Source of the DNA: Rathayibacter sp. SD072
Lineage (GTDB): Bacteria > Actinomycetota > Actinomycetes > Actinomycetales > Microbacteriaceae
DNA length: 40,516 nucleotides
NCBI RefSeq assembly: GCF_017355185.1
Contig: NZ_JADILJ010000036.1
Coordinates: 1 to 40,516, forward strand
Reading direction: 5' to 3'
Shown: piece after piece, positions 2,415 to 34,410 of the stretch
Layout: the number at the start of each line of letters is the position of its first letter
How positions within the stretch are numbered: position 1 is the stretch's first letter
Made by a program: the position numbers and the translations under genes
Notes under the pieces: model-generated
Told to the model about the DNA's origin: nothing
The model's input: the letters and a program-made list of their open reading frames with translations, nothing else
Database searches by the model: none

Positions 2415-2652
2415 GCCGTCAGGTTAATCGAGTCGCGGAGCGACTGCCATCCCCGATCCGGCTCGCCGGATCGATCAGCGGAACACCTTCGGTGTCGACG
2501 CCTGTCAGGAACGATTTGGGGAGCAAGCTGGCCGGTTAGGTCCCCTAACCTGTTTTCCGGCCTGGCGCTGCGCTGGGCCGGGGTGCACACTGGACGTGTG
2601 GTCCCCGCCGGGAGGCGGGTTCGCTGCGCTGGGCCAAGGGACGGAGGACGGG
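2415..2652. other. oriT: Candidate origin of transfer (oriT), hairpin-rich
   Basis: This 238-bp gap lies between divergent small genes and mobC. It holds four perfect small hairpins in a row: AGTCGC-gga-GCGACT (2431-2445), GATCCGG-ctcg-CCGGATC (2455-2472), ACACC-ttc-GGTGT (2483-2495) and GGTTAGG-tcc-CCTAACC (2534-2550). The last is enclosed by GGCCGG/CCGGCC (2530-2535/2557-2562). oriT regions commonly lie beside the mobC/relaxase genes and contain such inverted repeats next to nic. The nick position cannot be read from sequence alone. Confidence 0.55.
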
Positions 2653-3045
2653 ATGACGAACGAGGGTCGCCTGTTCGGTCGCAAGCGCCGGGCGAACGTG
2701 CCGGCGGAGCAGCGCCGCGAGAAGACGTACAAGGTGCGGGTGTCGCCGGCCGAGGATGCAGCGTTGCGTGCTCGGGCCGAGGTGATGCAGGTCACGGTCC
2801 CGCGGTTGATGTTCGAGGCCGCGACCGATGCGGAGCGACGCACGAACACGGAGTGGCGGGCGGTCGGCTCGGAGCTGGCGCAGATCCGAACGCTGATGGG
2901 ATTCATCTCGAACAACATGAACCAGCTCGCGCGGTTCGCGAACACTGAGGGTCAGTTCCCGGTAGAGGCGGAGCGGTTGGCGGCGGAGTACAAGCTGCTG
3001 GTGCCTCGCGTGTATGCGGCGCTGGATCGGTTGGAGGGCAAGTGA
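2653..3045 (+). CDS. mobC: MobC-like relaxosome accessory protein
   Basis: A 130-residue protein that likely binds oriT and helps the relaxase. After a basic N-terminus it has a ribbon-helix-helix-like segment (KTYKVRVSPAEDAALRARAEVMQVTVPRLMFEAA, about residues 24-58). It then has the MobC signature region with ISNNMNQLARFAN (about 86-98). The start at 2653 is set by GGAGG at 2643-2647; the longer frame upstream runs through the oriT region. The stop codon overlaps the GTG start of the relaxase gene, so the two are translationally coupled. Family and length agree with mobilisation proteins of the MobC type. Confidence 0.88.
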   Translation: MTNEGRLFGRKRRANVPAEQRREKTYKVRVSPAEDAALRARAEVMQVTVPRLMFEAATDAERRTNTEWRAVGSELAQIRTLMGFISNNMNQLARFANTEGQFPVEAERLAAEYKLLVPRVYAALDRLEGK

Positions 3046-4721
3046 TCCCCAACGTCACGTACGGCGGGGACATGGGCGGCCTGGTGCAGTACCTCGCCGG
3101 CCCGGGCCGTACCAACGAGCACACCGAGCAGCACTTGATCGCGGGGGACCCGGCGATCATGGCGATGCACGGCGAATCGGTTCTGGATCGTGCGGAGGCG
3201 CGAGAGATTGCGCGGAAACTGACACACAACCGCGACTTCTTCGGCGTCGACGTCACTCGTCAGGTGAAGGTGTTCGACCGGGAGACGGGGGAGCAGACCG
3301 GCACCGAACGGGTGAAGTCTGACGTGTGGCATTGCTCGCTGTCGCTACGGGCCGAAGAGGGCCAGCTCACCGACGAGCAGTGGGGCCGGATCGCGACCGA
3401 CTTCGTGGATCGGATGGGCTTCTCCGGGCCGTCGTCAGGGAAGGCGAATTGCCAGTGGGTGGCTGTGCGTCACGGGCTCTCCGCGAACGGGAACGACCAC
3501 ATCCACATCGCCGTGTCCGTGGTGCGCGAGGACGGCACCAAGGCGCACATCCCGCGGGACAAGAAGCTGTCGCAGACGGTGTGCCGGGAGTTGGAGCGCG
3601 AGTACGGCTTGGAGCGACTGCACGAGCCGGAGCGTGAGCTGGGGGAGCGCGGTATCCAGCCCGCAGCGCGCGAGGTCGCGCAGCGCCGCGGTGCGGTCGA
3701 GGTCGACGCGCACCGTTTGGAGCGGGCCGTGCGATCCTCCGCCGCGGCGTCGGTGGATGAGGGCGAGTTCGTGCGCCGGATGCGCCAGGCGGGCGTGCTG
3801 ATCCGACCCCGCTACGCGGCCGGCCGGGACGATGTTGTCGCCGGCTATTCCGTCGCGTTGCGGCCGGAGAAGAATCAGCCGGTGGTGTGGCACGGCGGCG
3901 GGAAGCTCGCCCGTGACCTGACGCTGCCGGAGCTACGCAAGCAGTGGCCCGACAGCCCTCAGACGGCGACCGCGGCCGTGCAGGAGTGGCAGGCGACGGC
4001 CAAGAATCCGTGGCGCTACGAGCCGGTCGCACCGGGCCGCGAGACGCGCGACGTGACGCCGGAGGTGTGGACGGATTACGCGCGCGAGCTCGCGGCGTTG
4101 AACGAGCGAGTAAAGGGCATTTCGCCGTCCGATCGGGCTCAGTGGGCGCATGCAGCGCGGGAGGCGTCGGGCGCGTTCGCGGCCTGGTCGCACCGGTTGG
4201 AGGCAACACCCGGGCCGCTCGCGGACGCATCGCGAGCGTTGGCGAAGTCGGCGCATCTGCGCGCTCACGAGTCGACGCCGCGGCCGTCGTCGTCGCGGTC
4301 GTTGGCCGGGCAGGCGATGGTGCTTATGCAGGTCAGTCGCAGCGGTAAGGCGACCGCCGCGGAGGCGTTGATCTTCCGTGAGCTGGTGACGCTGAGTCGC
4401 AGCCTGTACTCCATGCACAAGGCAGTCGGGGACGCACGGCGGGCACGAGAAGTGCGGTCGATGATGGAGCACCGGCTGACGGTCGTCCGCGACCGCATGC
4501 CCGCGATCGCCGCCGCCGGCCCGTCACGGGATCAGGCCGTGCAGCCGCACCGCGAGCTGACGGCGGAGGAGTTGCGAGTGCAGCGCGTCGCCGCCGCGAA
4601 TCGCGGCTGGGCGGACGGCTCACCGCTCCCGCGACAGCGCCCGACAGAGACACCGCGGGTGGAACAGCCCGCGCCGACGTTTGGTCCGCAGCGGGGCCGG
4701 GACGACGGACGCGACCGCTGA
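3042..4721 (+). CDS. mobA: Relaxase (mobilisation nuclease, PF03432/MOBP-like)
   Basis: This 559-residue protein would nick oriT and stay covalently bound to the transferred strand. The GTG start overlaps the mobC stop. The N-terminal half is the relaxase fold: TYGGDMGGLVQYL (residues 6-18) with Tyr7 and Tyr17 as candidate nucleophiles, WHCSLS (96-101), and the metal-binding motif NDHIHIAVSVV with His153 and His155, plus His144. The C-terminal half is helical and charged and ends in a proline-rich tail. The MOBP assignment rests on the HxH motif and the MobC partner; another relaxase class is not excluded. Confidence 0.9.
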   Translation: MIPNVTYGGDMGGLVQYLAGPGRTNEHTEQHLIAGDPAIMAMHGESVLDRAEAREIARKLTHNRDFFGVDVTRQVKVFDRETGEQTGTERVKSDVWHCSLSLRAEEGQLTDEQWGRIATDFVDRMGFSGPSSGKANCQWVAVRHGLSANGNDHIHIAVSVVREDGTKAHIPRDKKLSQTVCRELEREYGLERLHEPERELGERGIQPAAREVAQRRGAVEVDAHRLERAVRSSAAASVDEGEFVRRMRQAGVLIRPRYAAGRDDVVAGYSVALRPEKNQPVVWHGGGKLARDLTLPELRKQWPDSPQTATAAVQEWQATAKNPWRYEPVAPGRETRDVTPEVWTDYARELAALNERVKGISPSDRAQWAHAAREASGAFAAWSHRLEATPGPLADASRALAKSAHLRAHESTPRPSSSRSLAGQAMVLMQVSRSGKATAAEALIFRELVTLSRSLYSMHKAVGDARRAREVRSMMEHRLTVVRDRMPAIAAAGPSRDQAVQPHRELTAEELRVQRVAAANRGWADGSPLPRQRPTETPRVEQPAPTFGPQRGRDDGRDR

Positions 4722-6181: not shown

Positions 6182-8044
6182 CTAGTTCTTCTCCTGGCCT
6201 GGCTGGTGCGCGGCGATCGACGCCTTGATGGCCTCGACGGTCGCTTTCGGCCCCTTGAACCAGGGGACCGTTTTCAGCATCACGGCACGGTTACCGGAGG
6301 AGAACATCACCGCGCGGCCGCGGGGGAGGTCCGCGAGCTCCTGCACTTCCAGGATCTTGTCTCGCTTCAACGACGTCGTGGTGGAGCGGACGCCCTTGTT
6401 CATGCTGACCGAGGTCGTCTCCCGGTCGAAGGTGCCGATCAGGTCGGAGAGCATGCCGAGGAATTCCGGGTCGGAGACGCCGCCTGCGTACAGTTTCGTG
6501 TTCGACGCGGACCACAGCTTCTTCATGCCGTCCTGCCCGTACACGGCCACTCCCTGCGACCAGGACTGATAGACCGACATGATCGGGATTCCTCGAGAAC
6601 CGAAGTGGCTGTAGAGGTCGGGCAGGTCCGACCAGCGGCACACGTTCGCGGCCTCATCCAGCAGCCCCAGCAGCGGCGTCTTCAACCGACCACCGGGTGA
6701 GGCGGTTGCCAGCTCCTCCGCCGCCTCGATCGTCGCCGCGGTCAGCGCGGTGACGAGTGCGGTCGCGTTGCCGGCGCCTTCCTTCGAGAGGGAGTACAGG
6801 GTGCCGTGGCCCTTCACGAACTCGTGCGGGTTGAACTGTCGGCGCGGATCGACCGGCGCAGGCCGGACCGCCGTCGCCGTCCCGCCCCCGTCGACGGATG
6901 CGCCATCGACAGCATGCGCGGTCGCCTCCTGCACATGGTCGCCGGCCGCGGCCGGACCGGCGGAGTCCGTGCCGGGGGCGATGGGTCGAGGGTTCACCCA
7001 CGGCTCGATGTTCGTGTTGTTCAAGCACGCGGCCATCCGCTCCGCGGAGGAGTAGATGCCGTCGCGGGCCTTCTCGGACCCGCGCTGCACCGACCGGATC
7101 GCCTCCGCCTGACGCGGGTAGCCGGCGTCCTCCAGGTACTCCAACGCCTCCGTCCGGGCCACGTTCGTCAGCCAGTCGTACACATCCGTGATCGGCCGAT
7201 CCTGCATCGCCGCGGCGAGGAACATCGCCGCGAGAAGGTTCTGCGCCTTCCCTTCGAAGTACGCATCCGTTTTCGCGCCCGCGGCGGTCACGGAGGAGGC
7301 GAAGTGCTGCGCGAGCTTCGCGGCCTTGGTGTCGTCGGTGACGTACGTCAGCGGGTTCCACCACCAGGTGGGCTCCTCTAGCGCGACCTTCTGCGGGTCG
7401 AAGACCCACACGTCCCCGACCTGCGCGCGCAGGTCCCGCGTCGCATCGAGCACGTCGCGCTTGTTCGAGGTGGTGACCACCGCTCCGGGAGCGGCGGCCA
7501 GCGCCGGGATCACGAGAGAGGTCGACTTACCCACGCGAGGGCCGGCAATGAGGATCATCATGTCCTCGAACGAGGCGTACAGCGTCTTCTTGCTGTTGAG
7601 CACCATCGCCCCGGTCGGCACTCCCGGGTTGCCCTGCACGCCCAGGCGCGCGGACGTCGCGGTCGCTGCTTTCAGCTGCGACCCCTCCATCTCCTTCACG
7701 GACGCCATGTGCCGGGCGGCGTGATCCGCGCGCGACCCGCCCCGCGCCATCATCGACCGCATCCACAGCACCCACACCCCGACCAGGACGACAACGACCG
7801 CGACAGCGATCGCGACCGTCGTTCCCGAGGTCGGCCACGTGTACGTGCCCTTGCGCAGCCCCTCGATCATCGCGAACGGGTCGCCGGTCATCCCGGGGTT
7901 GATGCCGTCCATGTCCGAGCCCAGCTTCATCGACACCGCGAAGCCGACGATGGCACCTATCGCGGTCAACGACAGCGCGAGAATCGCGGTCTCGTTGCCC
8001 GCCTTCCCCGGCTCCCGGCGGCGGTTGCTGGTCATCCTGCTCAT
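6182..8044 (-). CDS. VirD4/TraG-type coupling protein ATPase
   Basis: 620 residues. It would join the relaxase-DNA complex to the secretion channel in the inner membrane. Two N-terminal membrane segments (about 20-38 and 75-95) precede the ATPase domain, with Walker A GPRVGKST (168-175) and Walker B LLGLLDEA (around 458-465). A Gly/Ala/Asp-rich insert lies between them. The 8044 start is supported by AAGGAG 8 nt upstream and an ATGA overlap with the preceding tiny gene. The long N-terminal extension in the same frame is arginine-rich and not protein-like. Length and motifs are typical for the family. Confidence 0.93.
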   Translation of the reverse strand: MSRMTSNRRREPGKAGNETAILALSLTAIGAIVGFAVSMKLGSDMDGINPGMTGDPFAMIEGLRKGTYTWPTSGTTVAIAVAVVVVLVGVWVLWMRSMMARGGSRADHAARHMASVKEMEGSQLKAATATSARLGVQGNPGVPTGAMVLNSKKTLYASFEDMMILIAGPRVGKSTSLVIPALAAAPGAVVTTSNKRDVLDATRDLRAQVGDVWVFDPQKVALEEPTWWWNPLTYVTDDTKAAKLAQHFASSVTAAGAKTDAYFEGKAQNLLAAMFLAAAMQDRPITDVYDWLTNVARTEALEYLEDAGYPRQAEAIRSVQRGSEKARDGIYSSAERMAACLNNTNIEPWVNPRPIAPGTDSAGPAAAGDHVQEATAHAVDGASVDGGGTATAVRPAPVDPRRQFNPHEFVKGHGTLYSLSKEGAGNATALVTALTAATIEAAEELATASPGGRLKTPLLGLLDEAANVCRWSDLPDLYSHFGSRGIPIMSVYQSWSQGVAVYGQDGMKKLWSASNTKLYAGGVSDPEFLGMLSDLIGTFDRETTSVSMNKGVRSTTTSLKRDKILEVQELADLPRGRAVMFSSGNRAVMLKTVPWFKGPKATVEAIKASIAAHQPGQEKN

Positions 8045-8235
8045 GGTGTGGCTCCTTCGGTCGGTGCTGGGCTGGTGAGAGTGGTGTGTGCGGGGATCGC
8101 TTGCTGCACCGTCGCGGTAAACGCGAGAGTGGCGGCCGTGGCCACGAGGGCAGCGGCAGCCAGTAGTGCGACGATCGCGCCGGCCTGGCCGAGCGGACCC
8201 CGTAGCAGCGCGGTCCGGGTGTGGGCGGCGATCAC
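8041..8235 (-). CDS. Tiny single-TM protein of the T4SS operon
   Basis: 64 residues from a GTG start at 8235 that overlaps the upstream stop (GTGA). Its own stop overlaps the coupling-protein start (ATGA). One membrane segment (about 18-42, GAIVALLAAAALVATAATLAF) is followed by a short outside tail rich in Thr/Pro. The tight overlaps on both sides argue that it is translated. The family is not recognised; a small membrane subunit between VirB4 and VirD4 is plausible. Confidence 0.65.
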   Translation of the reverse strand: MIAAHTRTALLRGPLGQAGAIVALLAAAALVATAATLAFTATVQQAIPAHTTLTSPAPTEGATP

Positions 8236-8492
8236 GACGTCGCCTGCTCGAGCAGCGGAGCGGATGCAGGCAGGAACCGGCGAGGCTCGCACCGCTCGTA
8301 GATCGGCCCGTCGTAGCGCGGCGTCGCATCGGCCGCCGCCGCCTCGCAGCTCGTGCCCCAGGTGAGGACGGCCTGGCCGTTGTCGACGTACTCGACGGGC
8401 AGGTCCGTCATGTGGTCCGTGTGCGGCAGCATCGTCGTCATCGCGCAGCCCCAGAGGTAGCCGTCGTAGACGACGGTCGACGCGCAGCTCAT
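8232..8492 (-). CDS. Small hypothetical protein with four cysteines
   Basis: 86 residues (MSCASTVVYDGYLWGCAMTTML...). The start at 8492 overlaps the preceding stop (ATGA) and the stop overlaps the next start (GTGA), so it is coupled on both sides. It has four cysteines (near residues 3, 16, 49 and 68), a GQAVLTWGTSCEAAAADATPRYDGPIYERCEPRRFLP core and no membrane segment. The family is unknown. A T4SS assembly factor is possible from context only. Confidence 0.6.
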   Translation of the reverse strand: MSCASTVVYDGYLWGCAMTTMLPHTDHMTDLPVEYVDNGQAVLTWGTSCEAAAADATPRYDGPIYERCEPRRFLPASAPLLEQATS

Positions 8493-21141: not shown

Positions 21142-21225
21142 GCTGACCACGGTAGCCGCTCGTACAGAGCACTGCTATTTTCAACAGGCCTCGACCAGTT
21201 CCGGGCACGAGAACCGGGGGTATGG
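21142..21225. promoter_or_regulatory. Divergent promoter region of the XRE operon and the esterase
   Basis: 84 bases separate the two divergent starts. They include an AT-rich patch (GCTATTTTCAACAGG near 21174-21188), the likely operator/promoter. On the minus strand TTGAAA could be a -35, but no matching -10 is clear. Confidence 0.4.
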
Positions 21226-25783: not shown

Positions 25784-26022
25784 GCGAGAACCGCTTTGCG
25801 GCCGCGGGCCGCGCAGCTCGACCGAAGAGGGCTCAGGTGGGCGAAGGCACTTTCGTGCCGCCGACCCAGCTCGCCGTATTCTCCGTCCGACTCCCCCAGG
25901 AATCGATCCGAGCGGTCAAGATCCTGGCGGCCGAGCAGGGGGTCCCCGTGCAGGTGCTCGCCGCGGAAGCGTTTCAACTCCTCCTCGCGCAGTACGAGGG
26001 ACGCAAAGCCGATGACAAGTAA
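25780..26022 (+). CDS. RHH partition partner (ParG/ParB-like)
   Basis: 80 residues from a GTG overlapping the parA stop. A flexible basic N-terminus (about 30 residues, RFAAAGRAARPKRAQ) precedes a ribbon-helix-helix domain, AVFSVRLPQESIRAVKILAAEQGVPVQVLAAEAFQLLLAQYEG. This build is that of ParG-like centromere-binding proteins, whose loose arm stimulates ParA. It probably binds the CAAGT/GTCAGCATG boxes at the parA promoter and elsewhere. The gene itself ends inside such a box cluster (26013-26037). Confidence 0.83.
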   Translation: MSENRFAAAGRAARPKRAQVGEGTFVPPTQLAVFSVRLPQESIRAVKILAAEQGVPVQVLAAEAFQLLLAQYEGRKADDK

Positions 26023-26168: not shown

Positions 26169-26204
26169 CATGCTGACTTGTAGGCATGTTTACAAGTCAG
26201 CATG
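26169..26204. repeat. 36-bp palindrome, copy A (putative centromere/operator)
   Basis: CATGCTGACTTGTA (26169-26182) and TACAAGTCAGCATG (26191-26204) are perfect 14-bp arms around GGCATGTT. The sequence shares GTCAGCATG and CAAGT/ACTTG with the parA operator. It abuts structured element copy 1 and is repeated at 29571. Confidence 0.75.
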
Positions 26205-26514
26205 TCGCGGTCGGTCGTGGGGGAGGGCCGTCGTCGCCGGCCCGTGAGGGGCCGGCCCCTCACCCTCCCCGGTTCTCCGCCCGGGGCGGGGTGCGCTTCG
26301 CGCACATCGCCTGCGGCGACCGGGAGCCGCTTCGCGGCACTGCTTTGAGGTTTTTTGTTCCTCTCCGCGGTACAAACCTATTTCGCTTCACCGGCTACGT
26401 GCCACCGATATCGGACGCGCCCTGCGGGCTTATTTCGCCCGATATCGGCGTCACTCCGCCGCCTCCACTCAAACGGTTCTTCCCGCCGGAGAGGCACAAA
26501 AAAACGATCAGACA
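26205..26514 (+). repeat. Structured ~300-bp element, copy 1
   Basis: First of five related intergenic elements. The 5' half is a row of hairpins (GAGGGGCCGGCCCCTC, GTGCGC-ttcg-CGCAC, GCCGC-ttc-GCGGC). The 3' half folds into one nested hairpin: outer stem TTTTTTGTtCCTCTCC (26351-26366) with GGAGAGGcACAAAAAA (26488-26503), then CGGC/GCCG, GTG/CAC and the 10-bp inner stem CCGATATCGG (26405-26414/26439-26448) around a loop with CTTATTTCGCC. It ends 63 nt before an ORF. Copies 1 and 2 are almost identical, including the palindrome in front. Confidence 0.85.
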
Positions 26515-26577
26515 AGGGATAAGCCAGGCGTCACCATCAGGTGAGAGGCCCGGTCTCGTTCCGGAGAAGCGGGAATC

Positions 26578-27063
26578 ATGTCGAACACGTCCACAGGCCA
26601 GGCCACCCCCGAGCAGCTCGCGCTCATCTGCACCACGCAGCGCGAGGCCAGCGCGGACTACGACACCGCCACCGACGCCGAAATCCTCGAGGACGCCCGC
26701 AACACCCTCTGCCTGCCCGGGACTGGCGCACCCGGAGCGCTGGCGATCGAGCAGGACGGGTCCCCGTTCGCGGAGGCGCTGATCGCCCTTCTTACGCCCG
26801 CTGTCGACGCCGGGGGAGCGGAGCCCGCCGTACCGGCGCCGAGCGTGGAGGAGGCCCTCGCGGCGTTCCTGGACACGTTCGCGAGTTGGGACCTTGCCGG
26901 GGACGTCGCAGCGCGGCTGAACTGTGGTGAGGTCGACGCCCTCGCCGGACTCCTGCGAGCCGCAGGCAGGGGAGAGGCCGCGGACCTGTGGATCGCGGAG
27001 CACGCCACCGACGACGACGAGGGCGACGCTCACCACACCACCACCGAGGGGAACGAGCGATGA
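26578..27063 (+). CDS. Hypothetical leading-region protein, 161 aa
   Basis: First gene after structured element copy 1. The acidic protein starts MSNTSTGQATPEQLALICTTQREASADYDTATD and carries a helical domain, EEALAAFLDTFASWDLAGDVAARLNCGEVDALAGLLRAAGRGEAADLWIAEHA. It closes with a His/Thr-rich acidic tail. The DALAGLLRAAGRGEAADLWI part resembles a segment of the next gene (VAVIAEMIEKAGHPEEADWWLFVHS), so the two may be distant paralogues. No family is recognised. The stop overlaps the next start (ATGA). Confidence 0.7.
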   Translation: MSNTSTGQATPEQLALICTTQREASADYDTATDAEILEDARNTLCLPGTGAPGALAIEQDGSPFAEALIALLTPAVDAGGAEPAVPAPSVEEALAAFLDTFASWDLAGDVAARLNCGEVDALAGLLRAAGRGEAADLWIAEHATDDDEGDAHHTTTEGNER

Positions 27064-27329
27064 GCGAGCAGAAGGAAATCGAGGCGGTCGCCACATACCT
27101 GGCCGCCGCCCGCGCCTACACGGCAGCCCTCGCGAGCTTCGACGTCGCCAAGGCTGTTGCCCCCGGCCTGCCGTGCCGTGAGGTCGCGGTGATCGCGGAG
27201 ATGATCGAGAAGGCTGGTCATCCCGAGGAGGCTGACTGGTGGCTCTTTGTGCACTCCACAGAGGGCGACATCGACGAATTCGACGAGCACGCCGACTACT
27301 GGCGGGAGGTGAGTCCGGCATGGCGCTGA
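27060..27329 (+). CDS. Hypothetical leading-region protein, 89 aa
   Basis: Starts at an ATGA overlap with the previous gene. An N-terminal helical region (EIEAVATYLAAARAYTAALASFDVAKAVAPG) is followed by CREVAVIAEMIEKAGHPEEADWWLFVHSTEGDIDEFDEHADYW, very acidic at the end. Acidic, small and early in a transfer-entry-like operon is how DNA-mimic anti-restriction proteins look, but no known one is matched. The 3' end overlaps the redoxin gene by 10 bp. Confidence 0.7.
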   Translation: MSEQKEIEAVATYLAAARAYTAALASFDVAKAVAPGLPCREVAVIAEMIEKAGHPEEADWWLFVHSTEGDIDEFDEHADYWREVSPAWR

Positions 27330-27550
27330 CGGTCTATTCCAAGCCCGCGTGCGTGCAGTGCACCATGACTTATCGGGTGCTCGATAAGAAGGGCATTGAG
27401 TACACCACCGTTGATATCACGACTAATCCGGCCGCGCTCGTGTACATCACCGAGGAGCTGGGCTATTCGGCCGCCCCCGTGGTCGTCGCGAGCGACGAGG
27501 ACCACTGGTCGGGGTTCCGTCCCGACCTCATCGAGAAGCACGCAGCGTGA
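27320..27550 (+). CDS. NrdH-like glutaredoxin/redoxin
   Basis: 76 residues with a thioredoxin fold in brief: LTVYSKPACVQCTMTYRVLDKKGIEY with the CVQC active site at residues 11-14, the cis-Pro region SAAPVVV and GFRPDLI at the end. NrdH redoxins reduce ribonucleotide reductase, so it could raise dNTP supply for second-strand synthesis after entry. No nrdE/nrdF gene is in the window. The start lies within the previous gene (10-bp overlap) and its stop overlaps the next GTG. Confidence 0.88.
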   Translation: MALTVYSKPACVQCTMTYRVLDKKGIEYTTVDITTNPAALVYITEELGYSAAPVVVASDEDHWSGFRPDLIEKHAA

Positions 27551-28275
27551 CCGGCCCGGACGCCGCAGGCGACGACTACCGGGCCGGGTACCTCGCCGGG
27601 CGCGCTGACCGTCAGGGCGAGGTCGACTGGCTGGAAAACGAGGCGGACCGGTACTACCGCATCGCCTACGGCGACGAGCGGCGTCTTCCGGCCTACGCCG
27701 TGACGCGCGCCGAGCTCGAACAGCGCAGGGCGCTGTCCGAGCCGCCCGTCGAGGTCACCCGACGCGACGCTCTCGCGTCCTGGGGCATCGAGACGCCCCC
27801 CACCGACACCCCCGCGGCCGACGCCGCGAACGAGATCCCGCCGACGTCGACGGGACGACCCACGAACCGAACGAGCAGGAGACGGCAAATGAGCACCAGG
27901 ACGATCACCGGGAACCTCGCCACCGACCCCGAGGCGGTGCAGGCGGGCCGCGTGCAGATCGTGAAGTTGCGCGTGATCGAGAACACCGGAGAGTTCCGCG
28001 GAGGGGAGTGGATCGCGCACGAGGCCCCGACGACGCACTTCGTGGAAGCGAAGTTCGAGCTGGGCGAGCACGTGCTCGCCTCCCTCCACAAGGGCGACGG
28101 CGTGATTGTCGTGGGTTACGAGCACACTGTCGCCTGGGGTGAGGGAGAGAACCGCCGCACGGGACGCGTGATCGAGGCCGACGCGATCGGCCCCAACCTC
28201 ACCCGCGCGACCGCCGTCGTCACGACGGCCGCGCAGCGCACCCCGCGCCGCAGCGCCGCCCCCGCGGCCGAGTAG
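27547..28275 (+). CDS. ssb: Single-stranded DNA-binding protein with an N-terminal extension
   Basis: 242 residues. From residue 115 (MSTRTITGNLATDPEA...) it is an SSB-like OB fold, with VKLRVIENTGEF, HFVEAKFELGEHVLASLHKGDGVIVVGYEH and RVIEADAIGPNL. It lacks the usual acidic C-terminal tip (ends RRSAAPAAE). The first 114 residues are unrelated and acidic, ending in a Pro/Thr linker. An internal ATG at 27889 has a good SD (AGGAG), so either a fusion or two in-frame genes, with separate SSB synthesis, is possible. It would coat incoming single-stranded plasmid DNA. Confidence 0.82.
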   Translation: MTGPDAAGDDYRAGYLAGRADRQGEVDWLENEADRYYRIAYGDERRLPAYAVTRAELEQRRALSEPPVEVTRRDALASWGIETPPTDTPAADAANEIPPTSTGRPTNRTSRRRQMSTRTITGNLATDPEAVQAGRVQIVKLRVIENTGEFRGGEWIAHEAPTTHFVEAKFELGEHVLASLHKGDGVIVVGYEHTVAWGEGENRRTGRVIEADAIGPNLTRATAVVTTAAQRTPRRSAAPAAE

Positions 28276-28288
28276 ATCGAGAGAAGCG

Positions 28289-28624
28289 ATGTTGTACGAC
28301 TCCCTCCTCCCCAACGTCCTCGCCGTGATCGCCGTCGCCCTCTTCGTCACCGGCGCCGTGCTGCTGGCGCGCATCCCGAACCGGCACCTGCCGATCCGAA
28401 CCCAGAAGCACGCGCGCGACTTCGTGCGCGTCTACGTCACCATCGAGGTCGGCGTCGGCTTCCTGATCGCCTCCATGTGGGTCGACGGCACCAACTGGCT
28501 TCCCGGACGCATCTTCGCGACCGTCGCCTACGTCGCTCTGCTGGTAGGCCTGCTGCCCGTGCTGCGCGGGATCGTCCGCGTCGCGACCGACCGCGAGAGC
28601 GCCGCGCGCACCGCAACGGAGTAG
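28289..28624 (+). CDS. Small membrane protein, 111 aa
   Basis: Three hydrophobic segments are visible: SLLPNVLAVIAVALFVTGAVLLA (about 5-27), VYVTIEVGVGFLIASMWV (48-65) and IFATVAYVALLVGLLPVLRGI (75-95). The loops between are basic and the tail is charged. The family is not recognised. It follows the SSB gene by 13 nt as the last gene of this operon; entry exclusion or membrane-linked protection is possible from position only. Confidence 0.68.
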   Translation: MLYDSLLPNVLAVIAVALFVTGAVLLARIPNRHLPIRTQKHARDFVRVYVTIEVGVGFLIASMWVDGTNWLPGRIFATVAYVALLVGLLPVLRGIVRVATDRESAARTATE

Positions 28625-28627
28625 TCC

Positions 28628-28786
28628 CTACTCCGAGCCGCCGTCGATCCGGAGCACGTACAAGATGACGTGATCCTCCGGGATCGCCGCGCGCACTTCC
28701 GCGATCGCGTCGGCGCTCGTCGCCGCGCTGCTGCGCACCACCGTTGATGCCAATTCCGCGCGCGTCCGGTGTGCCAGCTCCCACAT
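28628..28786 (-). pseudogene. Probable truncated minus-strand ORF
   Basis: The minus strand encodes MWELAHRTRAELAST...VLRIDGGSE (52 aa), ending at a TAG at 28628. The frame stays open and protein-like upstream (LRAAVGAEWDDGG before the Met), but no start codon with usable spacing is there; GGAGG lies only 1 nt before the ATG. The frame is lost where structured element copy 3 begins. A gene whose 5' end was replaced by that element is the simplest reading. Confidence 0.4.
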
Positions 28787-28835
28787 GCCTCCATCGTCCC
28801 ATTCGGCGCCGACAGCGGCTCTCAGCTCTCTGCGG

Positions 28836-29134
28836 GGAGGGCCGGCGGTGCCGTCCCGTGAGGGGCCGGCCCCTCACTCTCCCCGGTGTTCCGCTCGAGG
28901 AGCGGGGGTGCGCTTCGCGCACATCGCCTGCGGCGACCGGGAGCCGCTGCGCGGCGCTGCTTCGGGGTTTTTTGTTCCTCTCCGCGGTGCAAACCTATTT
29001 CGCTCCGTCGTCTCCGTGCCACCTATTCCGGGCGCGGTCGCAAGCTCCCTTATTTCGCCCGTAATAGGCGTCACTGCGACGCCTCCACTCAAACGGTTCT
29101 TCCCGCCGGAGAGGCACAAAAAAACGATCAGACA
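28836..29134 (+). repeat. Structured ~300-bp element, copy 3
   Basis: Same order as copy 1 but with a different inner stem: CCTATTCCGGGCG (29022-29034) pairs with CGCCCGTAATAGG (29056-29068). The CGGC/GCCG step is CGTC/GACG here, a compensating change. Outer arms lie at 28966-28987 and 29103-29124. The loop keeps CTTATTTCGCC. The element ends 16-19 nt before the next ATG, so the SD directly follows it. Confidence 0.85.
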
Positions 29135-29149
29135 AGGGAGCGCCACATC

Positions 29150-29554
29150 ATGCAGTCCACGCCGATGACCGCCGATACCGAACTCGTCGCCGCCACCACG
29201 CAGGAGACGCCGGGGAGCCGCGCGGAAGCGCTGCTCGCCACGATCGAGGAGCTGCACCAGCAGGTGTGGGCAGCGGCCCCCGAGCTTCTGGTCGAGACGG
29301 TGACCGACGACGGCGAGACGTACGAAGCGCTCCGGTGCCCTGTCTGCCAGACGCTCGTGACCGACTCCGGGGAACTCCGCGCGGTGGACGTCTCGACCCG
29401 GTGGAACAGCGCGGAGCCAGACGTGGAGAACCGCCAGATGGACGTGACCGCCGGGGATCACGACTACGGCAGCACCCTGTACTACCTCCACTGGACCGGC
29501 GAGGCACACGCGGTCATCCCGCCCTCCGGTTGGTCCGAGGACTGGTGCCTGTGA
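29150..29554 (+). CDS. Hypothetical leading-region protein with a Cys pair, 134 aa
   Basis: Start at 29150 has GGGAG 9 nt upstream. The protein has a helical start (RAEALLATIEELHQQVWAAAPELL), then EALRCPVCQTLVTDSGELRAVDVSTRWNSAEPD with one CPVC knuckle. A strand-rich end follows (DHDYGSTLYYLHWTGEAHAVIPPSGWSEDW). A single CxxC cannot form a full zinc site alone, so a dimer or other ligands would be needed. No family is recognised. It is a single-gene unit between structured elements 3 and 2. Confidence 0.68.
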   Translation: MQSTPMTADTELVAATTQETPGSRAEALLATIEELHQQVWAAAPELLVETVTDDGETYEALRCPVCQTLVTDSGELRAVDVSTRWNSAEPDVENRQMDVTAGDHDYGSTLYYLHWTGEAHAVIPPSGWSEDWCL

Positions 29555-29570
29555 GCCACATCGGCCGCGA

Positions 29571-29604
29571 ATGCTGACTTGTAGGCATGTTTACAAGTCA
29601 GCAT
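29571..29604. repeat. 34-bp palindrome, copy B (putative centromere/operator)
   Basis: ATGCTGACTTGTA (29571-29583) and TACAAGTCAGCAT (29592-29604) flank the same GGCATGTT centre as copy A. It lies 16 nt after the previous gene and directly before structured element copy 2. Confidence 0.75.
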
Positions 29605-29914
29605 GTTCCGGTCGGCGTGGGGGAGGGCCGGCGTCGCCGGCCCGTGAGGGGCCGGCCCCTCACCCTCCCCGGTTCTCCGCCCGGGGCGGGGTGCGCTTCG
29701 CGCACATCGCCTGCGGCGACCGGGAGCCGCTTCGCGGCACTGCTTTGAGGTTTTTTGTTCCTCTCCGCGGTACAAACCTATTTCGCTCCACCGGCTACGT
29801 GCCACCGATATCGGACGCGCCCTGCGGGCTTATTTCGCCCGATATCGGCGTCACTCCGCCGCCTCCACTCAAACGGTTCTTCCCGCCGGAGAGGCACAAA
29901 AAAACGATCAGACA
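29605..29914 (+). repeat. Structured ~300-bp element, copy 2
   Basis: Almost identical to copy 1; the clear differences are a few bases at the 5' end and CGCTC against CGCTT before CACCGG. Outer arms lie at 29749-29770 and 29883-29904, the inner stem CCGATATCGG at 29805-29814 and 29839-29848. The near identity with copy 1, extending through the palindrome, points to recent duplication or gene conversion. Confidence 0.85.
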
Positions 29915-29918
29915 AGAC

Positions 29919-29959
29919 GAAAGCCCCGTAGTTTCACTAGAACCACGGGACCCGTCGCG
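29919..29959 (+). repeat. 39-bp shared leader element, copy 1
   Basis: AAAGCCCCGTAGTTTCACTA and the 19 bases after it are identical here and at 32960-32999. The element can form CCCGTaGTT / AACcACGGG with a 7-nt loop. It occurs only after structured elements 2 and 5, before the ArdC and ParB-like genes, and is absent from the other three leaders. Confidence 0.7.
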
Positions 29960-29985
29960 TCGATCCTGACACAGGGAGAACCGAC

Positions 29986-30924
29986 ATGACCAGCACGACC
30001 TCCACCCGCAAGGCCGCCACCAAGAAGCGCGCACCCCGGACCACGCCGGAGGAGCGCCGCGAGCAGGCCGCCGCGCTGCACGAGAGCATCACCGAGCAGG
30101 TCGAGGCGCTGCGCGACTCCGACCAGTGGCGCCGGTTCCTCTCGTTCGCGTCCTCGTTCCACCGCTACAGCCTGGGCAACCTCCTGCTGATCCTCGCTCA
30201 GCGCCCCGACGCCTCCGCCGTCGCCGGGTTCCGGGCATGGCAGGCGAAGGGCCGCCAGGTGCGCAAGGGCGAGAAGGCGATCAAGATTTTCGGCTTCGCT
30301 CAGCGGAAGATCGCCGCCGACGAGGAAGCCGAGGAAGGCACCACGACCAGCACCGACGAGAAGGGGCAAAAGGTCCAGACCTACTACCCGCTCGTGTCCG
30401 TGTTCGCGATCGAGCAGACCGACCTCATGGAGGGCGCCGAGGATCCCCGCGACCTCGCGCAGCAACTCACCGGGACCGAGGACCACGGCGTCATCGAGGC
30501 CCTGACGGCCGCTCTCGAGGCCGAAGGGTGGACGGTCGAGCGCCGCACGCTCCCGCAGGGAACGAACGGCTACGCCCGCCCCGAGGACTGCACCGTCGTC
30601 GTCTGCGACACCCTCGCCCCCGAGCAGGCCGCGAAGACCCTGATCCACGAGACGGCACACGTGCTGATGGGTCACGTTGACGACCTGGAGGAGTACGCGC
30701 AGCACCGCGGAGTGATGGAGACCGAAGCCGAGTCGGTCGCGTTCGTCGTCGCCGGACTCGCCGGGTTCGACACGAGCGCCTACAGCGTCGGCTACGTCGC
30801 GAGCTGGAGCAACTGCGACGCCGACGTGATCCGCGGGACCGCGGCGCGGGTGCTCACGACCGCGCACCGTATCGCCGCGATCCTCGACGCCGACGAGGAC
30901 GAGAGCGAGGACGGCGAGAGCTGA
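29986..30924 (+). CDS. ardC: ArdC-like antirestriction protein
   Basis: 312 residues. The N-terminal domain (about 20-150) is the ssDNA-binding ArdC part: ITEQVEALRDSDQWRRFLSFASSFHRYSLGNLLLILAQRPDA and VRKGEKAIKIFGF. The C-terminal half is a zinc metalloprotease with HETAH (221-225) in KTLIHETAHVLMGH and a third-ligand helix ETEAESVAF (about 245-253). ArdC proteins protect incoming plasmid DNA from restriction. A good SD (GGGAG) precedes the ATG. It is the clearest sign that this region acts early after transfer. Confidence 0.9.
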   Translation: MTSTTSTRKAATKKRAPRTTPEERREQAAALHESITEQVEALRDSDQWRRFLSFASSFHRYSLGNLLLILAQRPDASAVAGFRAWQAKGRQVRKGEKAIKIFGFAQRKIAADEEAEEGTTTSTDEKGQKVQTYYPLVSVFAIEQTDLMEGAEDPRDLAQQLTGTEDHGVIEALTAALEAEGWTVERRTLPQGTNGYARPEDCTVVVCDTLAPEQAAKTLIHETAHVLMGHVDDLEEYAQHRGVMETEAESVAFVVAGLAGFDTSAYSVGYVASWSNCDADVIRGTAARVLTTAHRIAAILDADEDESEDGES

Positions 30925-30930
30925 GCGGCG

Positions 30931-31231
30931 GCGGGCCGGCCTTCGGGCCGGCCCGTGAGGGGCGACCCCCTCACACTCCCCGATCTTCCCCGTTCCGGGG
31001 GCGCGAGCTGCACTCGCGCAGCGGTGACGGAGCACCGCCGAAGGGAGGCCGCTACGCGGCCCGTTTCGCCATTTTCTTCACCTCTCCGCGGTCTCAACCT
31101 ATTTCGCTCCACCGGCTGCGTGCCACCGATATCGGACGCGCCCTGCGGGCTTATTTCGCCCGATATCGGCGTCACTCCGCCGGCTCCACTCAAACGGTTC
31201 TTCCCGCCGGAGAGGCAAAGAAAAACGATCA
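30931..31231 (+). repeat. Structured ~300-bp element, copy 4
   Basis: It begins with the GGCCGGCC-ttcg hairpin (30932-30955), which also ends the ArdC transcript. The 5' half differs from copies 1-3 but keeps hairpins (GCGCGAG/CTCGCGC, CGGTG/CACCG, GCCGC/GCGGC). The outer stem is TTTTCTTcaCCTCTCC (31072-31087) with GGAGAGGcaAAGAAAA, in place of TTTTTTGT/ACAAAAAA, so both sides changed together. The inner stem CCGATATCGG lies at 31126-31135 and 31160-31169. It ends 19 nt before the next ATG. Confidence 0.85.
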
Positions 31232-31249
31232 GCCAGAGGGAGACACACC

Positions 31250-31615
31250 ATGAGCCAGCAGCGCGGCACCCGTACCGAGGTCATCAAGAGCGAATACCAC
31301 GGACCCGGGGCGGAGGGGATCAGCCGGACCGCGCGCCAGGTGGTCATCGTCGGCGCCGGTGGTAGCGACCCGGTGACCGACCAGACCCCGGCTGTGCACC
31401 TGGTCACCCGCGAGGGCCGCGCGTCGCTGACCGGTGTGACGTTGCAGCACTTCGAGCCCGTCGAGCCGGCGGGGGAGGGGCGGATCGGCTACATGGCCTC
31501 CGGTGCCTACGTCGTCGTGCCGGTCGCGGTCGCCCGGGCGCTCGACCTGTTCCCCGCCGCGTACGCGCTGCACGACCGCAGCGAGACGCCCGCCGACTAC
31601 GCCACCAACGACTGA
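31250..31615 (+). CDS. Hypothetical leading-region protein, 121 aa
   Basis: Strong SD (GAGGGAG) directly after structured element copy 4. The sequence is strand-rich (TARQVVIVGAGGSD, PAVHLVTREGRASLTGVTLQHFEPVEPAGEGRIGYMASGAYVVVP) with a short helix at the end. There is no membrane segment, cysteine or catalytic motif. It looks like a small beta-barrel or sandwich. The family is not recognised. The DUF3560 gene follows 30 nt downstream and is probably co-transcribed. Confidence 0.68.
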   Translation: MSQQRGTRTEVIKSEYHGPGAEGISRTARQVVIVGAGGSDPVTDQTPAVHLVTREGRASLTGVTLQHFEPVEPAGEGRIGYMASGAYVVVPVAVARALDLFPAAYALHDRSETPADYATND

Positions 31616-31645
31616 CCCCCCCCCGACGCGAGAAGGAGAACCGAC

Positions 31646-32638
31646 ATGCTCACCATCACCCACACCCCCGAGGCCGGAACGCTCATCGAGGACACCAGCC
31701 GCGGAGACGGCACCGCCGAGATTCTGAAGGCGGCCGGGTGGCGGTGGGGTCGCTCCATCGGTGCTTGGTACGTCCCGCAGTCCCGCGACCGCCTGCCGAA
31801 GTGGTGGACCATCAATCGCGCCGCGACCGCGCTGCGCGAGGCCGGGCACGAGGTCACCGTCAACGCCGAAGACACGTTCCGGCCCACCGCCGAGGCGGAG
31901 GCGGGGACCATCGAGCGCCAGGCGGCCCGCGTCGACGCGCTCGACGCGAAGGCCGACCGTCGCGCCGAACAGGCGGACGACGCGGACGAGGCCGCCCGCC
32001 GCGCCCTCCGCCGCCTGCCCGAGGGAGGGGAGCCGATCAAGATCGGCCACCACTCGGAGACGCGGCACCGTAACGCGATCGCCAAGGCCGACGCCGCGAT
32101 GGGTCGCAGCGTCGAGGCCGACCGCGAGGCCACCCGCGCCCGAGCCCGCGCCGACGTCGCGGCCGGGACCACCGAAGCCCGCTACGCGCCCCGCGCGGTC
32201 GCGCGCCGCATCGACCGGCTCGACACCGACATCCGCGCCTGCACGCGGAAGATCGAGGGCAGCTCGCACAACTTCGGCGGCGGCTACATCGAGACGACCG
32301 CCCCGGCCACCGGCGCCCGACTCGACCGGCTGCACGCCGAGCGCGCGCAGCTCGAAGACCAGCGCGACTACTGGTCGGAGGTCCGCGACGCGCAGGCCGC
32401 CGCCGGACAGGTGACGATCCACAGCCGCGAGACGATCAAGAAGGGCGACGCGATCAAGCACCGGTTCGGGTGGAGCGTCGTGACCCGGGTGAACCCCAAG
32501 ACCGTGACCGTCGCGCTGGACTGGAACGCCGGGACGCGCCCCTACTCCGTGGCCTACGCCGACGTGCAGGGACACCGCACCGCCGCGGAACTCGACGCGG
32601 CCCGCGAGGCAGTCGCGGAGACGGCCGCGGCGAGCTGA
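31646..32638 (+). CDS. DUF3560 domain protein
   Basis: 330 residues. The N-terminus LTITHTPEAGTLIEDTSRGDGTAEILKAAGWRWGRSIGAWYVPQSRDRLPKWWTINRAATALREAGHEV is the usual start of DUF3560 proteins. A long coiled-coil stretch follows (about 90-180, TIERQAARVDALDAKADRRAEQADDADEAARRAL), with GGEPIKIGHHSETRHRNAIAKADAAMGRS, the domain's signature. DUF3560 genes are frequent on actinobacterial plasmids, usually among ArdC and ParB-like genes. The molecular role is unknown. The terminator hairpin at 32647-32668 follows. Confidence 0.85.
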   Translation: MLTITHTPEAGTLIEDTSRGDGTAEILKAAGWRWGRSIGAWYVPQSRDRLPKWWTINRAATALREAGHEVTVNAEDTFRPTAEAEAGTIERQAARVDALDAKADRRAEQADDADEAARRALRRLPEGGEPIKIGHHSETRHRNAIAKADAAMGRSVEADREATRARARADVAAGTTEARYAPRAVARRIDRLDTDIRACTRKIEGSSHNFGGGYIETTAPATGARLDRLHAERAQLEDQRDYWSEVRDAQAAAGQVTIHSRETIKKGDAIKHRFGWSVVTRVNPKTVTVALDWNAGTRPYSVAYADVQGHRTAAELDAAREAVAETAAAS

Positions 32639-32641
32639 GGG

Positions 32642-32950
32642 GGCGAGGGCCGGCCTTCGGGCCGGCCCGTGAGGGGCTGCCCCCTCACACTCCCCGGCAT
32701 CCCCGTTCCGGGGGCGCGAGCTCCGCCCGCGCAGCGGTGACGGAGCACCGCCGAGGGGAAGCCGCTACGCGGCCTGTTTCTCCGTTTTCTTCACCTCTCC
32801 GCGGTTTCAATCTATCTCGCTCCGTCGGCTACGTGCCGAGCATTTCGGACGCGGTCGCAAGCTCCCTTATTTCGCCCGAAATGCTCGTCACTCCGCCGAC
32901 TCCACTCAATTGATTTCATCCCGCCGGAGAGGCAAAGAAAAACGATCAGG
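32642..32950 (+). repeat. Structured ~300-bp element, copy 5
   Basis: The most diverged copy. It begins with a GGGCCGGCC-ttcg terminator-type hairpin (32647-32668). Outer arms TTTTCTTcaCCTCTCC (32785-32800) pair with GGAGAGGcaAAGAAAA. The inner stem is rewritten as GAGCATTTCGG (32838-32848) with CCGAAATGCTC (32876-32886) yet stays perfectly paired, and GTCGGC/GCCGAC is longer than in other copies. The loop keeps CTTATTTCGCC. This is the best evidence that the fold, not the sequence, is conserved. Confidence 0.85.
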
Positions 32951-32959
32951 AAGACGACA

Positions 32960-32999
32960 AAAGCCCCGTAGTTTCACTAGAACCACGGGACCCGTCGCC
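32960..32999 (+). repeat. 39-bp shared leader element, copy 2
   Basis: Identical to the element at 29919-29959 (AAAGCCCCGTAG... through CGGGACCCGTCGC). It lies between structured element 5 and the ParB-like gene. Confidence 0.7.
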
Positions 33000-33023
33000 T
33001 CAATGATCGCACATTGATTGAGG
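32998..33023 (+). promoter_or_regulatory. Hairpin covering the parB-like ribosome site
   Basis: CCTCAAT (32998-33004) pairs with ATTGAGG (33017-33023), which contains part of the GAGGAG ribosome site of the gene starting at 33034. AATG/CATT (33002-33014) gives an alternative smaller pairing that would free the site. This may be a translational switch. Confidence 0.5.
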
Positions 33024-33033
33024 AGAAACCATC

Positions 33034-34410
33034 GTGAACACCACCGCAAACGGGACCATCGAGCACATCGACCCGACCGCCCTCGTGATCGAGCAGAACG
33101 TCCGCACCAGCGCCCCGCTGACGAAGGAGTTCATCGACTCCATCCGTCAGAGCGGCATCCTCTCGCCCGTCCTCGGACGCCGCGACGAGCACGGCAACGT
33201 CATCGTCCGCGCAGGACAGCGCCGCACCCTCGCGAGCCGGGAAATCGGCCTCGCGACGATCCCCGTCTACGTCGTGGAGGGCGACGACAAGACCGCCGAG
33301 CGGATCGTGCAGCAGATCATCGAGAACGACCAGCGCGCCGAACTCTCCACCTCTGACCGCACCGCGGCATGGGCGCAACTGTCGTTCGAGGGACTGTCGG
33401 CCGCGACCATCGCCAAGCGCACCGGCACCAAGGCCGCGACCGTGAAGGCAGGACTCGCGATCGAGGAGTCCGCGGTAGCGCGGACCGCGCTGCACGAGCA
33501 CGAGCTGACCCTGGACCAGGCCGCGGTCATCCTCGACTTCGAGAACGACGAGGAGGTACGCGCCGACCTCATCGCCGTTGCCACCACCAACCCGAGCCAG
33601 TTCACCCACACTGTGGAGCGCCACCGCAAGGCTCGCGCCCGCCGCGTCGCCGTCCTGACGGAGGAGGCCAACCAGGAGGCCGCGGGATTCGTCGTCCTCA
33701 CCCGCGATCAGGTCGACGGGGAGGGCAGCCTGTGGGTCGGCATCGAGCCGCTGCGCACGGAGGACGGCAAGCGCGTGACCGTCGAGCACCTGGCGACCAT
33801 CGAGCCGCGCGGCGTGCTGGTCAGCACCATCTACGACGGCAGCACCCACGTCTCCTACGCGATCCAGGACCCCGCGGCCCACGGATTCAGCTACGCCTAC
33901 AACGCGCCCGCCGAGCCCGAGACGGAGAAGGAGAAGGCCGCGAAGTCCGCTGAACGCCGCATCCTCCTCGCCAACAACCGTGCGTGGATCGCCGCGGAGA
34001 CGGTGCGCCGCGACTGGATCGCGACGCTCCTGTCCCGCAAGACGCTCCCGAAGGATGCCGAGCGCGTCATCGCCCTGGGACTCACCGCGCACCGCTCCTC
34101 CGTGTCGGGCGGGATGAGCAACGGCAACGCTCTCGCCCACACCCTTCTCGGTGTCACCCAGCCCTCCGGCTACCACGCCGACGCGCTGGCCCCGCTGGTC
34201 GAGGCGAACCCCGCGAAGGCGCGACTGGTCGCGCTGGCCATCGTCCTCGCAGGGCAGGAGGCGAACACGAGCAAGGAGTCCTGGCGCCGCGGCGACGCCC
34301 GCGCCGCCGCCCACTTCCGCCAGCTCGCCGCCTGGGGCTACGCGCTCTCCCCGGTCGAGCAGGTCGTCACCGGCGACACCGCCGCCGCCGACGCCGCGGC
34401 TCTGAGCTAG
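33034..34410 (+). CDS. ParB/Srx-fold (ParB-N) DNA-binding protein
   Basis: 458 residues from GTG with GAGGAG upstream. The N-terminal ParB domain (about 8-100) has HIDPTALVIEQNVRTSAPLTKEFIDSIRQSGILSPVLGRRDEHGNVIVRAGQRRTLASREIGLATIPVYVV, including the GQRR CTP/DNA motif. An HTH (GLSAATIAKRTGTKAATVKAGLAI) follows at about 128-152. The C-terminal 250 residues are helical and unrelated to chromosomal ParB. There is no parA next to it, and a separate ParA-RHH pair exists, so it is probably not the partition ParB. Plasmid leading regions often carry such proteins. Confidence 0.87.
   Translation: MNTTANGTIEHIDPTALVIEQNVRTSAPLTKEFIDSIRQSGILSPVLGRRDEHGNVIVRAGQRRTLASREIGLATIPVYVVEGDDKTAERIVQQIIENDQRAELSTSDRTAAWAQLSFEGLSAATIAKRTGTKAATVKAGLAIEESAVARTALHEHELTLDQAAVILDFENDEEVRADLIAVATTNPSQFTHTVERHRKARARRVAVLTEEANQEAAGFVVLTRDQVDGEGSLWVGIEPLRTEDGKRVTVEHLATIEPRGVLVSTIYDGSTHVSYAIQDPAAHGFSYAYNAPAEPETEKEKAAKSAERRILLANNRAWIAAETVRRDWIATLLSRKTLPKDAERVIALGLTAHRSSVSGGMSNGNALAHTLLGVTQPSGYHADALAPLVEANPAKARLVALAIVLAGQEANTSKESWRRGDARAAAHFRQLAAWGYALSPVEQVVTGDTAAADAAALS

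Follow-up and report, generated by a model that had tools for sequence, protein, structure and literature searches.

The 40,516-nucleotide (nt) stretch analysed here, hereafter the window, is positions 1 to 40,516 of NZ_JADILJ010000036.1 from Rathayibacter sp. SD072 (contig C48, one of 117 contigs in the draft genome). It carries a conjugative plasmid backbone and five copies of an element of about 300 nt, each placed shortly before a gene. We think it likely that each element is a promoter that works on single-stranded DNA (ssDNA), with a function like that of Frpo on the F plasmid; transcription from ssDNA is what we infer from five features. The fold of the element covaries, the strand selected to fold is the one complementary to the genes, that strand presents a -10-like motif with a second hexamer at promoter spacing, the copies stand just before gene starts, and on plasmids with a PF03432 relaxase they all point the same way as the relaxase gene.

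All five copies seen by the first-pass annotation are present in a single orientation (plus strand), with slightly adjusted coordinates, and they head five transcription units. Copy 1 (26205..26514) precedes a 161-aa gene (26578), then glutaredoxin and SSB-like genes; copy 2 (28834..29135) precedes a 134-aa gene (29150) without assigned function; copy 3 (29605..29915) an ArdC-type antirestriction gene (29986-30924, PF08401); copy 4 (30927..31235) a 121-aa gene (31250) and a DUF3560 gene (31646-32638); and copy 5 (32641..32949) a ParB gene (33034-34410). Contig C51 of this genome carries two more. Within the element, a core fold of about 160 nt, assigned to the minus strand as the strand that probably folds, occupies 26350..26507 in copy 1 (171.1 bits with covariance model R1, scored on the plus strand), 28967..29127 in copy 2 (166.1 bits), 29750..29907 in copy 3 (172.9 bits), 31071..31228 in copy 4 (169.2 bits) and 32784..32945 in copy 5 (159.1 bits). 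The outer stems, the invariant CTTATTTCGCC string and the compensatory changes match the earlier description. The variants reported for the inner and middle stems are real as well, and only their assignment has to be corrected, copies 2 and 3 having been interchanged: copy 2 (28.8 kb) has the CCTATTCCGGGCG inner stem together with the CGTC/GACG middle step, and CCGATATCGG belongs to copies 1, 3 and 4. The distance to the start codon, given before as 19-85 nt, is about 15-83 nt when counted from the end coordinates used at the time, and an ATG does not follow every copy, since the gene behind copy 5 begins with GTG (33034).

Conservation of the fold with covariation, proposed from the five copies, was borne out with more homologues. 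In a 22-sequence alignment built from sequence alone, 95.9% of cells pair and both partners vary in 18 of the 31 pairs. The alignment scores 0.429 for covariation; the value for shuffles is 0.172, with none of 500 reaching 0.429, and sliding the partners gives at most 0.120. Three of the 31 pairs make up helix 4, a small local right-arm helix called by RNAalifold, which is probably spurious and was excluded from the parsimony count. For a broader sample, the best 150 of 179 matches to the covariance model were reduced to 138 non-identical copies and, after removal of four mirror-strand copies and one incomplete copy, to 133, from which 87 representatives of <92% similarity were drawn. By parsimony over these representatives, one Watson-Crick pair was exchanged for a different one 204 times in four helices; pairs 54/102 and 55/101, misaligned between subtypes, were left out, and pair (10,149), which is G.T in 27/133 sequences, was kept. 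The minus strand of 26205-26520 folds with z = -4.76 relative to 100 shuffles. A search of the entire window against Rfam 15 returned no family at gathering score, and nine sub-threshold matches in 26.0-33.1 kb (E 0.22-10) were taken as chance.

Wobble pairs can tell which strand is under selection. An A.C on the plus strand is a G.T on the minus strand, so that selection on the minus strand tolerates A.C and not G.T in the plus reading, and selection on a plus-strand RNA tolerates G.U and not A.C. The strand complementary to the genes is the more stable one in 86/87 representatives and in all 22 looser clusters, and it is still more stable in 85/87 copies when wobble pairs are left out. As a positive control, the complement of the coding strand was more stable in 17/17 distinct Frpo copies, mostly drawn from named plasmids because PsiB as bait yielded three loci only; for RNase P, the negative control, the complement was more stable in only 4/28 genes (28 of 30 loci, two cut by contig ends being excluded). 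The 1x1 mismatches inside shared helices tell the same story, although mismatches other than A.C or G.T are commoner than either in the element helices. Read on the plus strand with RNA parameters, the element has 56 A.C and 17 G.T (26:10 in distinct contexts); the A.C:G.T ratio in the 17 Frpo copies is 31:0 with RNA and 15:0 with DNA parameters, and in RNase P it is 3:20 and 4:7, respectively, with G.T:A.C at 248:14 on consensus pairs. Parsimony on the consensus pairs of the element finds 48 changes to A.C and 28 to G.T (two-sided binomial p 0.029); the alignment had been fitted to the model of a plus-strand RNA, so that any bias should be towards G.U. By the signs of stability and mismatch on each strand, the element therefore resembles Frpo, whereas a functional RNA shows the reverse: what folds is the template strand, the complement of the genes, and not an mRNA leader.

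Smaller hairpins point to the same strand. In DNA, hairpins with a GNA triloop of the GCGAAGC type are exceptionally stable. Among hairpins of at least 4 bp in the 180 nt upstream of the 87 copies, 68 have a GNA triloop on the minus strand and 15 the mirror TNC loop. Two such mini-hairpins with GAA loops adjoin the core of copy 1 on the minus strand (26291-26305 and 26326-26338, within 26291..26338), as listed from the near-identical copy 3.

A -10-like motif, TANNNT, stands in the folded strand on the arm facing the template in 86/87 representatives, with its three fixed letters invariant or nearly so and the inner three variable; the arm that is the coding strand in double-stranded DNA (dsDNA) reads TANNNT in 1/87. 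TANNNT is the actinobacterial -10 consensus. A second hexamer was sought at the distance at which a promoter would carry one, and a conserved hexamer, mostly GG[CA]ACG (63/87), was found there, 17 nt upstream of the -10-like motif in 61/87, 16 in 15, 18 in 7 and 19 in 4, that is, 16-18 nt in 83/87. All five copies in the window have TAGGTT or TAGATT, GGCACG and a spacer of 17: on the minus strand, TAGGTT lies at 26375..26380, 28992-28997, 29775-29780 and 31096-31101 in copies 1-4 and TAGATT at 32809-32814 in copy 5, with GGCACG at 26398..26403, 29015-29020, 29798-29803, 31119-31124 and 32832-32837 in copies 1-5. TTGACA-like readings made by eye in single copies were dropped as unconserved. In minimum-energy folds of the minus strand, the A at -11, which has a role in promoter opening, is paired in 23/87 representatives, the T at -12 in 46, and positions -10 to -7 in 62-82.

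The element stands before genes of many kinds. A start codon lies 12-97 nt past the model end in 128/133 copies, and 18-24 nt past it in 71 of these. The downstream genes form 21 groups with no similarity detectable across groups, among them ParB (22), glutaredoxin (17), ArdC (12), DprA (12), DUF3846 (11) and SSB-like (7), as named from plasmid or window gene annotation and from sequence. Genomes of the Microbacteriaceae, the family to which the window belongs, were scanned with a covariance model of the ~160-nt core built from 22 copies: the core is present in 70 of 398 genomes, representing 30 of 85 genera, with up to seven copies per genome. An order-wide draw gave 9/396 positive genomes, five inside the family and four weak ones outside, and a class-wide draw gave 5/394, two of them outside the family. 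An Arthrobacter plasmid carries a full-length copy (149.5 bits). At E <=1, 71 plasmid records, including ones from Dietzia, Rhodococcus and Gordonia, contain a match to the 41-nt tip module of copy 5; no phage record is among the matches. In other actinobacterial families, plasmids of Paraoerskovia (Cellulomonadaceae) and Dietzia have a second, larger subfamily with the same tip (CGAAATAAG-like; loci L187, L188 and L111-L114); three very similar copies of it were seen in the examined part of the Paraoerskovia plasmid.

The direction of the copies was compared with that of conjugation genes by relating the strand of the best 150 of 179 copies to that of the closest relaxase (PF03432 or PF08751) encoded on the contig, in 57 genomes (on large contigs a relaxase within 60 kb was counted, and the split by relaxase family was made by hand). 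On contigs that have a PF03432 relaxase, all 60 copies (19 replicons) lie on the strand of the relaxase gene, so that for PF03432 plasmids, the one in the window included, the direction rule holds firmly. With a TrwC (PF08751) relaxase, 20/32 copies share the strand, including 8/8 within 3 kb. A narrower count, with relaxases in fewer genomes, had given 71 of 76 copies with the relaxase; the wider one revealed 12 opposed. In addition, in a TrwC-type chromosomal island (L080, L169) the element and a 101-aa-type gene adjoin the intergenic gap before the relaxase, so that this copy is placed as expected for a first-entering gene. The folding strand, TANNNT with its spacer and the 60/60 orientation on PF03432 contigs support, by inference, the Frpo-like promoter role put forward in the first-pass annotation.

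We propose the following course of events, in which the identity of the transferred strand (T-strand), its use by RNA polymerase, the timing and the shut-off are all inferred. Conjugation would bring the minus strand into the recipient as the T-strand. In the F plasmid, leading genes point to the origin of transfer (oriT) and the T-strand is their template, as described in the available part of PMC9849209; the geometry of the PF03432 plasmids is the same, and the minus strand should therefore, by analogy, enter first here. On arrival, the element would fold back on itself, its 3´ arm taking the place of the absent non-template strand and supplying TANNNT and the hexamer 17 nt upstream, with its 5´ arm continuing as template into the gene. 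As the A at -11 is usually unpaired, the -10 region would be partly pre-opened for host RNA polymerase. In this way, transcription of the leading-region genes, among them ArdC, SSB-like, ParB, glutaredoxin and DUF3560, could precede second-strand synthesis. Once the DNA is double-stranded the fold would be lost, and the promoter would be off, the true coding strand having no such hexamer there.

Several observations weigh against this proposal. The upstream GG[CA]ACG differs from TTGACA, and in dsDNA the TANNNT motif could serve a promoter directed away from the gene. The close spacing to start codons is to be read with the habits of the start picker in mind, which prefers close starts with a ribosome site. 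The mismatch signal has its exceptions: with DNA parameters the excess of A.C over G.T in the element is slight (17 to 13; 13:6 in distinct contexts), and the 28 parsimony changes toward G.T run the wrong way. The GNA excess is partly background, because the whole window, elements included, also shows 44 GNA and 18 TNC loops. The identity of the T-strand is argued from gene layout and by analogy with F, the oriT itself being putative. Direction raises a further difficulty. Beyond 3 kb from a TrwC relaxase, 12 of 24 copies run with it and 12 against it, which is no association, and both orientations occur on 17 of the 36 contigs with at least two copies listed. None of these mixed contigs (G155:C34, G141:C18, G078:C10, G205:C2, G319:C1 and 12 others) carries a PF03432 relaxase, and on 10 of them no relaxase was found; copies in mixed-orientation islands likewise stand before gene starts. 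Three of the mixed cases are divergent pairs 140-340 nt apart, which do not fit a single T-strand because the opposite-strand copy could not use the same one. In these pairs (L074, L077 and L081, in G028, G226 and G267), one copy stands before ArdC and points the relaxase's way, the other before an outward small gene. No such direction rule holds for most TrwC-type islands, and the proposal does not account for the mixed contigs.

A structured 5´ leader RNA of the plus-strand mRNA, such as a riboswitch, a protein-binding leader or an attenuator, was considered first because the element ends so close before the ribosome site; it covaries as such a leader would, and a leader needs no fixed direction to oriT, which suits the mixed contigs. 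The strand tests led us to set it aside. In 86/87 representatives the sense strand is less stable than its complement, the favoured changes are A.C rather than G.U, the reverse of RNase P, no Rfam family reaches gathering score in the whole window, and of the unpaired hexamers the most conserved can be read as a -10 only on the other strand. The first-pass annotation had left this alternative standing, and we now consider it quite improbable. A lagging-strand priming site (ssi or sso), used by RNA polymerase or by a primase-like protein encoded at 22837-24777 and having no role in expression, would account for a fold on the strand that is probably the T-strand, and the protein nearby has a weak match to an archaeo-eukaryotic primase domain (E 0.0007). 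However, priming alone hardly explains up to seven copies per genome, each shortly before the start of genes of many families, and a TANNNT motif spaced 17 nt from its partner hexamer is indicative of RNA polymerase. We regard it as unlikely, if the least unlikely of the alternatives, as the sole function. It can coexist with a promoter role; Masai and Arai (1997) reportedly named both promoter and priming roles in their title.

Two further readings keep the repeats and give up the ssDNA promoter. The element might be an ordinary dsDNA promoter or regulator site on the minus strand, giving a leftward or antisense transcript, and TANNNT with its hexamer 17 nt upstream does read away from the gene on that strand. 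Covariation with a far arm over some 160 nt and the placement before gene starts would both then be left unexplained; this is the least probable of the readings weighed here. An antisense RNA on the minus strand was considered as well, and by eye no terminator-like end was seen. A conjugation-related regulatory repeat other than an ssDNA promoter, like EGeRS1 of Bacillus pLS20, shares the layout of long folded repeats before establishment operons, as far as the available part of PMC8708921 describes it. There, according to the same part of that paper, the transferred strand is the non-template strand, whereas here the template strand folds and a -10-like motif is present, and we hold such a repeat to be very doubtful, a shade more so than the leader RNA.

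Promoters on ssDNA are known from before: Frpo (Frpo1 and Frpo2) of F and its relatives, and ssi of the IncI plasmid ColIb-P9. Like the element, Frpo is an imperfect hairpin in a leading region, and it is the complement of the coding strand that folds; genes behind Frpo point toward oriT, as those on the PF03432 plasmids probably do. Frpo may also be present several times per plasmid (four places matched in pKpQIL), and its cargo is similar (SSB, ParB-like, antirestriction and DUF3560). Unlike Frpo, the element occurs in actinobacterial hosts, on PF03432 plasmids and TrwC islands instead of F-type plasmids, and in mixed orientations in some islands. Model R1 gave no significant match at 12 loci carrying or expected to carry Frpo (L146 and L148-L158; best E 0.73). 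On the best reading, then, the element is a class of single-stranded promoter without detectable sequence similarity to Frpo. A separate observation from the Frpo loci concerns a contig filed as Streptomyces morookaense (L147), whose PsiB gene shares 97% identity with the F gene; contamination is probable. The promoters of the N4 virion RNA polymerase are small-triloop hairpins on template ssDNA. They are brought to mind by the GNA mini-hairpins adjoining the element core, although N4 combines a phage polymerase with small hairpins and the element a large fold with a sigma-type -10-like motif. The resemblance to EGeRS1, compared by description, is that on pLS20-family Bacillus plasmids establishment genes, ardC among them, are preceded by long folded repeats, five in number; the available part of PMC8708921 identifies no promoter in them and makes the transferred strand the non-template one, in contrast to the template-strand fold and -10-like motif of the element.

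Published surveys would have passed over such a class, since they relied on sequence similarity or a sigma-70 consensus. As far as their available text goes, PMC11541004 used five known Frpo/ssi sequences with the sigma-70 consensus, reported for a Streptococcus island no sequence significantly similar to Frpo and does not contain "actinobacteri" in its main text, and PMC12826799 used BLAST with the five known Frpo/ssi sequences and 13 putative ones. The sole Gram-positive system examined for an ssDNA promoter, pLS20, was judged not to have one (PMC8708921, in the part available). Our literature search, whose scope took in few subscription papers and no preprints, found no actinobacterial ssDNA promoter among the matches listed, and the experimental cases it returned are enterobacterial. 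Promoters of this kind thus seem not to have been reported from actinobacteria before.

The remainder of the window fits a conjugative plasmid. A MobC-like gene (2653..3045, plus strand, start codon inferred; weak NF041264 match, below its cut-off) is followed by the PF03432 relaxase gene (3042..4721, plus strand, from a domain match), and the minus strand encodes a TraG/TraD-type coupling protein of the type IV secretion system (6182..8329) and an SCO6880-family protein. A ParA-type ATPase gene lies at 25.2 kb, and the plus-strand genes of 26.5-34.4 kb include those for glutaredoxin, an SSB-like protein (match below Pfam's cut-off), ArdC, DUF3560 and ParB. A putative oriT at 2520..2550 on the minus strand, upstream of mobC, consists of the inverted repeat GGTTAGG/CCTAACC followed by AGCTTGCTCC; an inverted repeat followed by GCTTGCTCC on the minus strand upstream of mobC is also found in two relatives, and the pattern recurs at another relaxase locus in the window's own genome. 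A similar arrangement is seen in two closed plasmids, one of Rathayibacter festucae (51 kb) and one of Mycetocola zhujimingii (32 kb), with leading-type genes on the plus strand, then a recombinase, then mobC and the relaxase on the same strand; in the R. festucae plasmid cargo genes are inserted between these modules. The primase-like match of the protein encoded at 22837-24777 (647 aa) is to PF22548; proteins of like size sit in a similar place in relatives, and it may be a replication protein or primase. Between the transfer genes and this gene lie genes for a beta-lactamase-fold protein (20695-22269, PF00144) and an alpha/beta hydrolase (17831-18976).

Some smaller features surround the elements. 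A 13-bp inverted repeat (ATGCTGACTTGTA, an 8-nt gap and TACAAGTCAGCAT) stands directly 5´ of copies 1 and 3 (26170-26203 and 29571-29604), in the first case near a ribbon-helix-helix gene (25780-26022), and might be an operator or a parS-like site. In front of both ArdC and ParB, a 58-nt repeat follows the element (29916-29973 and 32956-33013); it forms a second hairpin, more stable on the minus strand with RNA parameters, which recurs before similar genes in relatives. At 26485-26495, and by eye in many copies, the right arm alone can make a short GCC...GGC hairpin, which could cap the 5´ end of a transcript.

We rate it as somewhat better than an even chance that actinobacterial conjugative plasmids and islands have a sigma-dependent class of single-stranded promoter of their own, probably evolved independently, that acts as a sensor, on in ssDNA and off in dsDNA, and fires several establishment genes in parallel. 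Promoters of this kind explain how a plasmid protects itself before it becomes double-stranded. If the proposal is true, expression from incoming ssDNA would be a general strategy with more than one origin, and those islands that carry copies in both orientations would be cases in which either strand is at times single-stranded in the cell. A strand test on inverted repeats could reveal further promoters of this type without a known sequence to start from, and in actinobacteria the element itself would flag candidate establishment and anti-defence genes.

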